Shown here: positions 11,781 through 42,996 of the stretch, one piece after another
How positions within the stretch are numbered: position 1 is the stretch's first letter
Layout of the letters: every line of letters begins with the position of its first letter
Source of the DNA: Pseudalkalibacillus salsuginis
Lineage (GTDB): Bacteria > Bacillota > Bacilli > Bacillales > Fictibacillaceae
DNA: 62,641 nucleotides
NCBI RefSeq assembly: GCF_021646685.1
Contig: NZ_JAKJHW010000012.1
Coordinates: 1 to 62,641 of the forward strand
Direction: 5' to 3'
Notes under the pieces: model-generated
The model's database searches: none
What the model was told of the DNA's origin: nothing
The model's input: the letters and a program-made list of their open reading frames with translations, nothing else
Position numbers and translations under genes: made by a program

Positions 11781-11960
11781 CGAATTAGAAACAAGAAGTT
11801 CCAGGTGCAAAGGTTTTGAGGACCGGATCGTATAATTTTGATACGTGAGGGCCGGTAAAACCAAGTAACGCTCACTGGCTAAAACCATCACGTCCTGTGA
11901 CAACGCCGGTACTAGCACGCCTGTGCGTCGGAAATTCGCCGTTCATCATTTGGTGACTTT
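11781..11960 (+). repeat. multi-hairpin interspersed element, copy A (rpsK-rpoA gap)
   Basis: This copy shares long segments with copies at 30.3 and 42.9 kb. Stem one: GGTTTT/AAAACC (11812-11862) with inner CCGG/CCGG and CGTAT/ATACG. Stem two: ACTGGC/GCCGGT (11874-11910) enclosing TCAC/GTGA. Stem three: GCAC/GTGC (11915-11926). It ends in ATTCGCCGTTCATCATTTG. It lies inside the ribosomal superoperon, antisense to transcription in the orientation described. No convincing gene is seen in this gap. Confidence 0.85.
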
Positions 11961-12089
11961 TTGGAACATTCCTTAACGGGTCACCTCCATAGGTTAACCC
12001 ATTAGTATGCATTGCTCATTTATTGTTCATACATAACCATTATAGACAGGTTTCTAAATTGTAATACTTCAGGTTTAAAACCTCAAGCA

Positions 12090-12485
12090 TTAAACACGAC
12101 GACGTTTTGGTGGACGGCATCCATTATGAGGAACTGGTGTTACGTCACGGATTGCTGTCACCTCAAGGCCTACAGCTTGAAGTGCACGGATTGCTGCTTC
12201 ACGTCCAGCACCAGGACCCTTAACAGTTACTTCAAGAGTCTTCATTCCGTGTTCCATAGCAGTTTTCCCAGCTGATTCGGCTGCCATTTGCGCTGCAAAC
12301 GGAGTGGATTTACGAGAACCTTTGAATCCAAGGTTGCCTGATGAAGCCCAAGAAACTGCATTACCGTGTGTATCAGTAATTGTAACAATCGTATTGTTGA
12401 AAGTAGAGCGGATATGTGCGATCCCACTCTCAATATTCTTTTTGACTTTACGTTTACGAGTGTTTGTTTTACGTTGTTTAGCCAT
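12090..12485 (-). CDS. rpsK: 30S ribosomal protein S11
   Basis: This is a 131-residue S11, a platform protein of the small subunit. Landmarks are [16 protein letters not shown], the GGxxx-like loop, and the basic end [11 protein letters not shown]. It follows rpsM by 18 bases. Downstream the superoperon is interrupted by the repeat-containing spacer before rpoA. Confidence 0.98.
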
Positions 12486-12503
12486 GTGAGTTTACCTCCC
12501 TTA

Positions 12504-12869
12504 CTATTTCTTCTTATTCGCAACTGTACGGCGTGGGCCTTTACGTGTACGTGAGTTGTTTTTCGTCTTCTGTCCGCGAACTGGAAGACCACGACGGTGA
12601 CGGATACCTCTGTAGCTTCCGATCTCGATCAGACGTTTGATGTTAAGCGAAACTTCACGGCGAAGGTCACCTTCAACTTTGTGGCGGTCGAAGATCTCAC
12701 GGATTTTGTTCAATTCTTCTTCAGTCAGGTCTCTTACACGCGTATCTTCAGAAACACCTGCTTCAGCAAGAATTTGTTGAGCCTTAGACTTTCCGATACC
12801 GAAAATATACGTTAATGAAATGACAACTCGTTTGTCACGAGGGATATCAATTCCAGCAATACGTGCCAT
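12504..12869 (-). CDS. rpsM: 30S ribosomal protein S13
   Basis: This is a 121-residue S13, which forms the small-subunit head contacts (B1 bridges) with L5 and L31. [15 protein letters not shown] at the start, the HhH-like [15 protein letters not shown] and the tail [15 protein letters not shown] are typical. It lies 19 bases after rpmJ in the conserved rpmJ-rpsM-rpsK order. Confidence 0.98.
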
Positions 12870-12888
12870 GTATGTGCACCTCCTATTC

Positions 12889-13002
12889 TTATCCTTGTTT
12901 TTGTTTATGCTTAGGGTTTTCGCAAATTACCATGACGGTTCCTTTACGACGAATAACTTTACATTTTTCGCAAATTGGTTTGACTGATGGTCTTACTTTC
13001 AT
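12889..13002 (-). CDS. rpmJ: 50S ribosomal protein L36
   Basis: This is a 37-residue zinc-ribbon L36. It reads [20 protein letters not shown], with Cys 11 and 14, a later Cys (CENPKHK) and His giving the C+ zinc form. The start is an internal ATG at 13002 with an AGGAGG site upstream; the longer open frame is not coding. It is in the standard infA-rpmJ-rpsM order. Confidence 0.96.
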
Positions 13003-13171
13003 TCCTAAATACCTCCTTATGCCACGGACTTGCACAAATTGTGCTGACTTCGACGACAAAATCGAAAATCCTATTGAGCGAGGCACTTCAATTTAGCTTA
13101 ACCGTTTCACCCACAAGAGTGGTCTCGTTCATATGCCTGGTCATACGCAAGGCATCTACCGGAAAAAAGTC

Positions 13172-13390
13172 TTACTTGTAACGATACGTGATACGACCAC
13201 GTGATAAATCGTATGGAGACAATTCTACGGTTACTTTATCGCCTGGCAGTATGCGAATATAGTGCATACGAATCTTCCCAGAAACGTGAGCTAAAATTTT
13301 ATGACCATTCTCAAGCTCTACGCGAAACATTGCATTCGGAAGAGGCTCAATTACGGTTCCTTCTACCTCGATTACATCTTCTTTAGCCAT
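13172..13390 (-). CDS. infA: translation initiation factor IF-1
   Basis: This is a 72-residue S1-like OB-fold protein that binds the 30S A site during initiation. The sequence [20 protein letters not shown] and the end [12 protein letters not shown] are near-invariant in Bacillus. The start is ATG 13390; the upstream in-frame ATG at 13429 lies in the KOW gene. It overlaps that gene's stop by 8 bases. A 169-base gap separates it from rpmJ, with no recognisable gene. Confidence 0.97.
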
Positions 13391-13706
13391 CGATTTGTTC
13401 CTCCTTCTCAAGCAAGTCTGCTTGATCATTCAAGAATTTCGACACGGCGAAACGCAATTTACCGTTTGTTACACGTCCTGTTTCATCGATGCTTCGCTTA
13501 ACTTCCGGCGAAATATATTGAAACAGCTCAAGATGATTGATGTTCTTCTTCTTAGCTCGGTCATATTTTCGTTTATCACCGTCAGCGATGAGGACAAATT
13601 TATCGTCCACAACACCCACAACTACATTGATTTGACCAGCGTCCCGCCCTCGCAAAATATGGACCAATTGCCCAACTTGCGGTACCGGCTCGGATTCACT
13701 CACCAT
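13383..13706 (-). CDS. KOW-domain RNA-binding protein
   Basis: This is a 107-residue protein with an N-terminal KOW motif (about 10-40: [20 protein letters not shown]), a family otherwise seen in ribosomal proteins L14e/L6e/L27e and L24. Proteins of this kind occur between map and infA in many Bacilli, where they are annotated as KOW-domain or L14E-like RNA-binding proteins. RNA or ribosome binding is likely from domain and location; the exact role is unknown to me. The ATG at 13706 is preceded by GAAGGTGAT. It overlaps infA slightly, indicating co-expression with initiation factor IF-1. Confidence 0.88.
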
Positions 13707-13719
13707 TTATCACCTTCAC

Positions 13720-41958: not shown

Positions 41959-42029
41959 TTTCATTTCCTCCTTAAGTGTGGTTTTTACGGAATATCCTCC
42001 CACTTGTACGCAACTTGTGCGCCATAAGA

Positions 42030-42052
42030 AAGGTTGCGAATAACGCAACCTT
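42030..42052 (-). promoter_or_regulatory. hairpin between rplK and rplA
   Basis: In the transcript sense AAGGTTGCG-TTATT-CGCAACCTT forms a perfect 9-bp stem followed by TCTTATGG. It lies 16 bases after the rplK stop. It could be an attenuator or an L1-binding site. The distinction cannot be made by eye. Confidence 0.55.
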
Positions 42053-42067
42053 ATGTGCTATGCATGA

Positions 42068-42493
42068 TTAGTCCTCGATTACAATACCCATGCTACGTGC
42101 AGTACCTTCCACCATACGCATGGCAGATTCTACGCTTGCAGCATTAAGGTCAGGCATTTTCGTCTCAGCGATTTCTTTTACCTTATCACGCTTAACCGTT
42201 GCTACCTTGTTACGGTTCGGTTCACCAGAACCGGACTCGATACCTGCCGCTTTTTTCAACAATACTGCAGCTGGCGGAGTTTTCGTAATGAATGTAAATG
42301 AACGGTCTTCAAAAACCGTAATTTCAACCGGGATAATCATACCAGCTTGATCAGAAGTTCTTGCGTTGAATTCTTTACAGAATCCCATGATGTTAACACC
42401 TGCTTGACCTAAAGCCGGTCCTACTGGTGGTGCTGGATTTGCTTTCCCTGCAGGAATTTGCAATTTAACAACCTTAATTACCTTTTTAGCCAC
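42068..42493 (-). CDS. rplK: 50S ribosomal protein L11
   Basis: This is a 141-residue L11, of the GTPase-associated centre and thiostrepton site. The start is a GTG at 42493 ([20 protein letters not shown]) with AAGGAGG upstream; the 50 further codons in the open frame are leader. The Pro-rich [17 protein letters not shown] motif is intact. Confidence 0.97.
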
Positions 42494-42605
42494 GTGACAC
42501 ACCTCCTTAGTCCGTGATGTGGTATATGGGCTTTTTGCCCTCCCACTCAATAACAGGGTTGACGCAGGCCAACCCTCCCAATTTTTTATCGGGATTGTTT
42601 CAAAC
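42494..42605 (-). promoter_or_regulatory. rplK leader with small hairpins
   Basis: The leader has, in the transcript sense, GGGTTGGCCTGCGTCAACCC and GGGCAAAAAGCCC hairpins before the ribosome binding site. There is no T run. They may modulate translation of rplK-rplA. Confidence 0.5.
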
Positions 42606-42611
42606 ATTAAG

Positions 42612-42640
42612 ATTCTATCATTTCCTGCTTTATATTTCAA
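42612..42640 (-). promoter_or_regulatory. promoter of rplK-rplA
   Basis: On the minus strand TTGAAA (42635-42640) and TAGAAT (42612-42617) are separated by 17 bases, about 120 bases before the rplK start. Confidence 0.75.
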
Positions 42641-42689
42641 CAATTTCCCGAAAGTTTTGTTGAAAAGCAGACAAAGTCATTTTTAAAAG

Positions 42690-42765
42690 CTTTATTGGTT
42701 TCCGTGAAATTCACTCCCTTTCCGCGGACGAACCGCAGGACTGTCGCGAATTTCGCTTAAAAAAA
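42690..42765. repeat. GC-rich fold-back repeat, short copy
   Basis: Begins GGTTTCCGTGAAATTCACTC and ends CCGCAGGACTGTCGCGAATT. The arms GAAATTC and GAATTTC pair, and CCGCGG lies inside. The ends match the longer element at 49.04-49.19 kb. Repeats of this look are common in intergenic DNA of Bacillaceae, from general recollection. Confidence 0.7.
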
Positions 42766-42826
42766 CTTTCTAACCACATGCTGGTAATTCCTACGTCGAA
42801 AATTCACCGTTTACTTCCTGATCTAG

Positions 42827-42996
42827 ACGAATTAGAAACAAGAAGTTCGAGGCACGACGGTTTTGAAGACCGGAGCGTATATGTTAACACGTGAGGACCG
42901 GAAAAATCGAGTAACGATCACCGGCTAAAACCGTCACGTCCTGTGACAACGCCGGTACTAACACGTCATGTGTGTCGGAAATTCGCTGTTTATCAT
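42827..42996 (+). repeat. multi-hairpin interspersed element, copy C (nusG-rplK gap)
   Basis: Starts GACGAATTAGAAACAAGAAG and carries stem one (GGTTTT, CCGG/CCGG, CGT/ACG; from 42859), stem two CCGGC/GCCGG enclosing GTCAC/GTGAC (about 42921-42955) and stem three ACAC/GTGT (42961-42973). It ends in AATTCGCTGTTTATCATTCG about ten bases from the nusG stop codon. It is the copy most like copy A. Confidence 0.85.

Follow-up and report, generated by a model that had tools for sequence, protein, structure and literature searches.

What is the multi-hairpin sequence that recurs in the gaps between ribosomal-protein and RNA-polymerase operon genes of Pseudalkalibacillus salsuginis: a mobile element, or an RNA adapted to the transcripts in which it lies? 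The question is raised by a 62,641-nt stretch of contig NZ_JAKJHW010000012.1 (assembly GCF_021646685.1; hereafter the window), for which a first-pass annotation had listed three long copies and one decayed copy of such a sequence and had left both answers standing. The sequence is probably a composite miniature inverted-repeat transposable element (MITE), in which a 92-nt folded chassis with terminal inverted repeats carries swapped hairpin modules and depends for its movement on a DDE transposase acting in trans.

Element copies in operon gaps

A mechanical repeat search of the window recovered all four copies: three of 101 nt at 11765, 30293 and 42812, and a common 29-nt tail in four copies, one of them at 44315-44343 (repeat families D1, D7 and D11). 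The shared string, the GGTTTT..AAAACC stem and the CCGG arms described earlier are present, and 12 copies from the genome align at 85% mean column identity. The genes identified in the window are rpoA, rpsK (S11), rpsL, rpsG, nusG, rplK (L11) and sigH; rpmG is the name used in the first-pass annotation. All genes flanking the operon elements lie on the minus strand, which is also the RNA strand of the elements (the sense strand of the covariance model R1, described below).

Element 1 (11768-11967, minus strand) lies between rpsK and rpoA. It has the arms GTTCAAAA and TTTTTGGAAC and combines the chassis (R1 match 11779-11870) with a module matching the Rfam family Bacillaceae-1 (RF01690) at 11863-11927 on the plus strand (47.1 bits, cut-off 35). 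G004, one of the eight genomes of the genus compared here (G000 to G007), has the element at the same site and six congeners lack it; the gap is 407 nt here and 400 nt in G004 versus 180-193 nt in the six others.

Element 2 (30296-30497, minus strand), between rpsL and rpsG, joins the chassis (R1 match 30307-30398) to another hairpin module at about 30399-30459, and an Rfam scan of the element gives no Bacillaceae-1 match above the cut-off. Judged by eye, modules of the same kind occur in the G002 elements L155, L159, L166 and L168. The copy first placed at 30264 is this element, and beside it lies a separate remnant (30245-30288, minus strand) that consists of element ends only and is found without element 2 in G004 and G007. 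The gap measures 296 nt here and 282 nt in G002 versus 30-88 nt in the six other congeners. In G003, G004 and G007 this gap holds tiny hairpins of element ends only, apparently left after loss of the interior.

Element 3 (42820-43014, minus strand; R1 match 42826-42916) lies between nusG and rplK and again carries a Bacillaceae-1 module (42909-42974, plus strand, 62.7 bits). Gap lengths are 361 (G000), 546 (G007) and 442 (G004) nt versus 1-144 nt in the five others, all about 156 nt too low because the open reading frame taken for rplK includes sequence ahead of the conserved L11 start. An arm of element 3 contains the nusG stop codon (43005-43007), and the last nusG codons are unlike those of congeners without the element. 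The expansion of operon gaps noticed at the outset is thus borne out by comparison with congeners lacking the element. The decayed copy (44264-44346, minus strand; 76%, family D7), in the rpmG-sigH gap, consists of a Bacillaceae-1-like piece and the tail, and falls below the Rfam gathering score for Bacillaceae-1.

Transposition signature

The element behaves as a MITE: it is short, present in many copies and without a transposase gene, and it has terminal inverted repeats, target duplications and empty sites. Target duplications were measured in G002, the genome with most copies, where an exact 5-bp AT-rich duplication flanks 33 of the 39 elements in which both ends could be identified (two rows, at L122 and both scored as 'same', share an end beside an assembly gap). 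Among the remaining rows, one has 6 bp, one 4 bp, one 2 bp and three have none; when the flanks are shuffled, 5 bp is reached in 9.4% of cases and 6 bp in 0.8%. The end pattern matches 60 times in forward and 64 times in reverse orientation in G002, and a reversed control pattern matches 0 and 0 times. Gaps that are filled by an element in one genome are short or hold only a remnant in congeners. These properties, and copy numbers that range across the genus from 2 to at least 80 per genome, bear out the earlier suggestion of a non-autonomous mobile element.

A 5-bp target duplication together with inverted ends suggests a DDE enzyme rather than single-strand transposition. The trans-acting transposase that would move the element is most likely of the IS1182 family, as discussed below.

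Exchangeable modules on a common chassis

R1 is a covariance model of 92 positions and 23 pairs, built from 12 own-genome copies over their common part; at nine of the 23 pairs one or more sequences carry a double change. Scans of 12 loci gave no Rfam match for the chassis, and Bacillaceae-1 covers 65-67 nt of the element's approximately 190 nt. The statement that no named family could be recognised therefore stands for the chassis and fails for one module.

Could the repeat be nothing but Bacillaceae-1 RNA as already described? Rfam matches at 11863, 42909 and 163, and a total of 21 above the cut-off in this genome, are what such an explanation predicts. However, many chassis copies, including element 2 and those at L042, L045 and L046, are without the module, and the chassis itself matched no Rfam family in the 12 scanned loci. 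Moreover, the module also occurs in a second, different repeat of this genome, whose arms resemble CGACACTCCTGCGGG, and in rRNA operons, where in G006 it lies on the rRNA strand of at least six 23S-5S spacers (L271, L275-L279); at one further G006 locus (L274) no rRNA was reported. We therefore consider this explanation very improbable. Because Bacillaceae-1 is found in a different repeat and in rRNA operons as well, it is a module rather than the element: one exchangeable module of a composite element.

The composite structure is seen most fully in G002, whose elements range from 116 to 486 bp and share one backbone. By eye, the longer ones contain Bacillaceae-1 and at least two other hairpin modules that replace chassis hairpins or lie between them; the Bacillaceae-1 parts of L155 and L162, the two elements scanned, were confirmed by Rfam. 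One common insertion locus, presumably fabG-acpP, is plain in G000 and has the same arms plus two Bacillaceae-1 modules in G007 (fabG, acpP, leuS, serS and gapA are names that we assume from the protein sequences). Such differences indicate that folded modules, Bacillaceae-1 and at least two more, are exchanged at the hairpin positions of the chassis. Upstream of the presumed serS in G000, G004, G007 and G001 (L051, L240, L235 and L250), chassis or Bacillaceae-1 elements lie between this gene and what appears by eye to be a T-box leader, and their outer stems are altered yet still pair.

As the genes flanking the operon elements all read in the minus direction, each element is transcribed in the direction opposite to that of the Rfam model, and in the Rfam orientation the modules of elements 1 and 3 are antisense to their operons. 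The inverted fragments reported earlier in the 16S rRNA leader correspond to a Bacillaceae-1 match at 163-229 (minus strand, 57.8 bits), which inverted repeats I1/I2 pair with the copies at 42916 and 11879. On the rRNA strand this match runs in the Rfam orientation, the reverse of what is seen in the operon elements; a weaker Bacillaceae-1-like stretch of the leader (285-348, minus strand, 25.3 bits) is under the cut-off of 35. Since the module lies on opposite strands in rRNA precursors and operon mRNAs, the two kinds of transcript are complementary, and their loops (GUCCU and AGGAC) match. Predicted duplexes of the 16S leader with the nusG-rplK and rpsK-rpoA modules gain 32.0 and 34.3 kcal/mol over the separate folds, versus mean gains of 3.5 and 3.6 kcal/mol for 100 mononucleotide shuffles of each mRNA stretch. 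This gain follows from the presence of a common module in opposite orientation and is thus no evidence of function. That pairing between precursor rRNA and mRNA might couple rRNA output to the element-bearing ribosomal-protein operons is a conjecture to which we give hardly any credence; if it were true, a mobile element would be the vehicle by which an antisense link acting in trans had spread.

Distribution across genomes

The covariance-model search that had been proposed as a check found 20 R1 matches in the genome at E 0.1: three in the window, three at one leuS locus, one among tRNA genes and 13 elsewhere. The three window copies are a local cluster in a window chosen for holding them, and in G006 the str/S10 stretch (144-182 kb) contains none of the 41 R1 matches. 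Taken as plain counts, with no formal comparison to a background, these positions do not show the enrichment in translation operons that was to be checked. All eight genomes of the genus have matches at E 0.01 when 150 candidates are scored in each (18, 15, at least 80, 2, 16, 10, 35 and 19 in G000 to G007). At E 0.0001, with at most 10 candidates scored per genome, R1 matches were found in 84 of 397 genomes and 37 of 135 genera of the order, and ends of the same kind are present in other genera.

Spread by plasmids or phages found no support, as one chassis copy had no match at E 0.001 among 72,556 plasmid records or 50,697 phage records. The exact end sequence occurs in six viral contigs and forms an inverted pair in one of them (L314); there, at approximately 2297-2625, an element of about 330 bp has these ends around a different interior.

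A candidate mobiliser

An insertion sequence (IS) in G388 (L304) encodes an IS1182-family transposase (448.8 bits, cut-off 270) and has ends that match those of the element at 15 of 18 positions. A second locus with a DUF772 domain (L306) has a short hairpin with similar ends. An IS1182-family IS is the most likely mobiliser that we can infer, and we treat it as a lead. The L304 IS resembles the element in its ends, differs from it in encoding a transposase, and shows no 5-bp duplication.

Two other results make this lead less secure. Matching ends surround the transposase in only one of 12 DUF772 loci, and G002, which is richest in copies, yielded no IS with matching ends; its one long candidate (L302) lies in an assembly-gapped stretch. 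Among the transposase families tried, no mobiliser was found in G002 or G006. IS4-type loci (PF01609; G002 and G006) had no pair of element ends. Tn3-type loci (PF01526; G000, G002 and G004) were considered because of the 38-bp end length and the 5-bp duplication, and they too showed no end pair within 1.5-kb flanks, which may miss the ends of an element of Tn3 size.

Orientation and placement

In six genomes of the genus, nearly all R1 matches between co-directional genes read in the same direction as those genes. Genes were called crudely, as open reading frames of at least 80 codons. Sense matches account for 15 of 17 in this genome (the two opposite ones are weak matches), 18 of 18 in G006 (where 28 of the 41 matches were placed), 12 of 12 among the first 13 loci of G001, G004, G005 and G007, and 14 of 15 among 23 further rows of G001, G004 and G007, in which L246 has a gene on one side only and L237 and L249, with two matches each, are tandem pairs. 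Pooled, 59 of 62 are in sense. As a control, Bacillaceae-1 in this genome's other repeat family was in the same orientation as the genes six times and opposite four times (L007, L017, L019 and L025 being assigned to that family by eye, with four rRNA-leader loci uncounted).

If sense orientation reflects retention in the transcript, several observations weigh against a general rule. G002 has no significant bias (19:11, p 0.2), and in 19 genomes from ten other genera, with one copy each, seven copies were in the same orientation, eight opposite, three divergent and one unplaced (L282 has a gene on one side only, and L283-L285 look like one common insertion). The difference between the six genomes and G002 pooled with these 19 (59:3 versus 26:19; Fisher p 3e-6) is overstated, because many rows are insertions common to several genomes and not independent. 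Orientation in G002 is also independent of copy divergence (p 0.76), so that filtering with age is suggested only by the comparison between genomes, and an age filter within G002 was dropped. Finally, 38 of the 41 G006 matches lie on the presumed leading strand (assuming an origin at coordinate 0 and a terminus at the midpoint), so replication and transcription are confounded there.

The last observation is what would be expected if fork-coupled transposition, with a replication-driven strand bias of insertion, alone produced the one-orientation pattern, as is the location on the leading strand of eight of nine matches in divergent and convergent gaps. Nevertheless, the 5-bp duplication and inverted ends point to a DDE enzyme, and 11 copies in G002 lie opposite to the co-directional genes around them. 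In G006, Bacillaceae-1 at 782,572 follows genes on the lagging strand, that at 3,602,702 is on the leading strand yet opposite to its genes, and that at 145,493 is opposite to both. We therefore think it distinctly unlikely that a fork-coupled bias explains the pattern by itself. Our own reading is that new copies land both ways and that sense copies are retained in some lineages, although an insertion bias would also fit.

The elements lie mainly in gaps that have at least one gene downstream. In G002, one of 37 gaps with an element is convergent, whereas among neighbouring gaps that lack one and measure 60 bp or more the figure is nine of 20 (p 0.00015); G006 shows no such difference (two of 23 versus one of 22). 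Three of the 22 placed among the further rows of G001, G004 and G007 are in convergent gaps.

Conservation of the fold

We examined the fold within one subfamily, using 30 chassis-only copies drawn from six genomes (G000 7, G006 10, G005 3, G001 4, G007 4 and G004 2). A 40-pair structure, drawn from one of the 30 sequences, is paired in 87.8% of cells versus 32-47% (maximum 46.6%) when the partner is slid, and double changes occur in 26 of the 40 pairs versus 13.2 in shuffles; some of the copies are common to several genomes. In the outer stem 75.7% of cells are paired, and several copies have changed on both sides with pairing kept.

This covariation, together with the one-orientation placement in six genomes, would also be expected of a functional cis-acting RNA, such as a leader or intercistronic regulator, that had multiplied through ordinary duplication and was kept for its RNA function, mobility being incidental. 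Three common copies are likewise better kept than four-fold degenerate sites of the same genome pairs: those at the leuS locus (G000/G001; 84/86 identical versus 108/243), in the tRNA gap (G000/G001; 73/85 versus 92/215) and at L043/L212 (G000/G007; 78/91 versus 109/195). In contrast, four G000/G004 pairs show no consistent excess, with element identities of 71-94% at four-fold identities of 88-96%, where the two sequences of the 71% pair may be different members of a tandem cluster; a gapA pair was left out because its two copies are not orthologous.

Wobble pairs might distinguish folding as RNA from folding as DNA, and the result is ambiguous. The inner helices P2 and P3 have 74 G-U cells versus 8 A-C cells on the sense strand, as an RNA would predict, but 56 of the 74 come from two near-invariant wobble columns, and the remaining columns of all helices have 45 A-C and 38 G-U cells. 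The outer stem (37 A-C, 20 G-U) does not favour RNA, and its covariation may also arise by template-switch correction of quasi-palindromes, without selection. Against an RNA kept primarily for its function are also the G002 copies, which are near-identical, have target duplications and lie in both orientations. Furthermore, the neighbours of the element, as far as they were recognised, have no common function, and orthologous gaps are often without it. On balance we regard a cis-acting RNA with incidental mobility as unlikely.

If the element is instead a composite MITE, its sense RNA may fold on itself from the stop codon of one gene to the ribosome-binding site of the next, in a compact and non-terminating form. 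A consensus scan around two elements found no intrinsic terminators or promoters inside them, and these were set aside as a cause of the orientation. Sense copies could persist in operons because this fold is tolerated between stop codon and ribosome-binding site, and its lack of an obvious intrinsic terminator might explain why it is tolerated in operons as essential as rpsL-rpsG. We infer a function of the element as RNA with corresponding caution: the RNA probably alters local mRNA processing or stability, and this is the least certain step of the proposed mechanism.

Other repeats in the window

Remnants of the second repeat family lie at 42707-42757, with a related arm at 49042-49078; their arms are like GAAATTCGC, CTCCTGCGG, CCGCGGAAAGGG and GTGAATTTC. 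An exact direct duplication of 108 nt (49264-49371 and 49434-49541, 100% identical) is found just downstream of a T-box leader match (49590-49807, minus strand). At 5633-5739 there is a palindromic repeat cluster of CCAGGCACC and GGTGCCTGG in which long hairpins are possible (inverted repeats I5 and I7). Four tandem units with a 21-nt period, equal to seven codons, lie at 62394-62490 (D3) and overlap an open reading frame at 62396-62638.

Comparison with known repeat families

Bacillaceae-1, a named orphan RNA family, takes its place here among the interchangeable components of a mobile element, and about one fifth of the sampled genomes of the order contain the chassis. The result is a natural series of RNA-structured elements whose modules can be combined and which lie within essential operons, where an insertion would be expected to carry a cost. 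With them one can test how polycistronic mRNAs tolerate mobile DNA, and why orientation is nearly uniform in some lineages.

Among known repeats, BOX of Streptococcus pneumoniae has the most similar plan, and the bcr1-bcr3 repeats, which belong to the Bacillus cereus group, come from the closest hosts. The size of bcr1 is about 155 bp. The bcr1-bcr3 repeats are described as intergenic and MITE-like, as is our element, and often lie in untranslated regions or operon gaps (PMC3446304, PMC6542083, PMC2267715). Two bcr1 sizes given are 147 and 167 bp (PMC2267715), versus 154 bp here, and their 5-letter AT-rich motif TTTAT may be set beside the 5-bp AT-rich target duplication. They are described as restricted to the B. 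cereus group, and the likeness is one of description. Bacillaceae-1 as described is 67 nt long (PMC2864571), so that the chassis, the other modules and the inverted ends lie outside it; here it is antisense to the operons and sense in rRNA transcripts.

BOX is alike in plan only: it is modular, with inverted ends, target duplications and strong RNA folds; it is presumed to be moved in trans by an IS, and its module content is variable (PMC3049150). Effects on mRNA processing have been reported for other repeats in the same account. BOX varies mainly in the number of one tandem module, boxB, whereas here the hairpin tips are exchanged, at several positions, for modules of different kinds. Enrichment between convergent genes is reported for BOX (PMC3049150), whereas convergent gaps are avoided by our element in G002 and not measurably in G006; and 60.8% of BOX elements lie on the leading strand (PMC3049150), in contrast to the one orientation in six genomes here. 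As a composite MITE, the present element is unusual in swapping structured modules, including an Rfam family, at its hairpin tips and in being operon-sense in part of its range; no earlier description of its chassis was found in searches of the open-licence literature.

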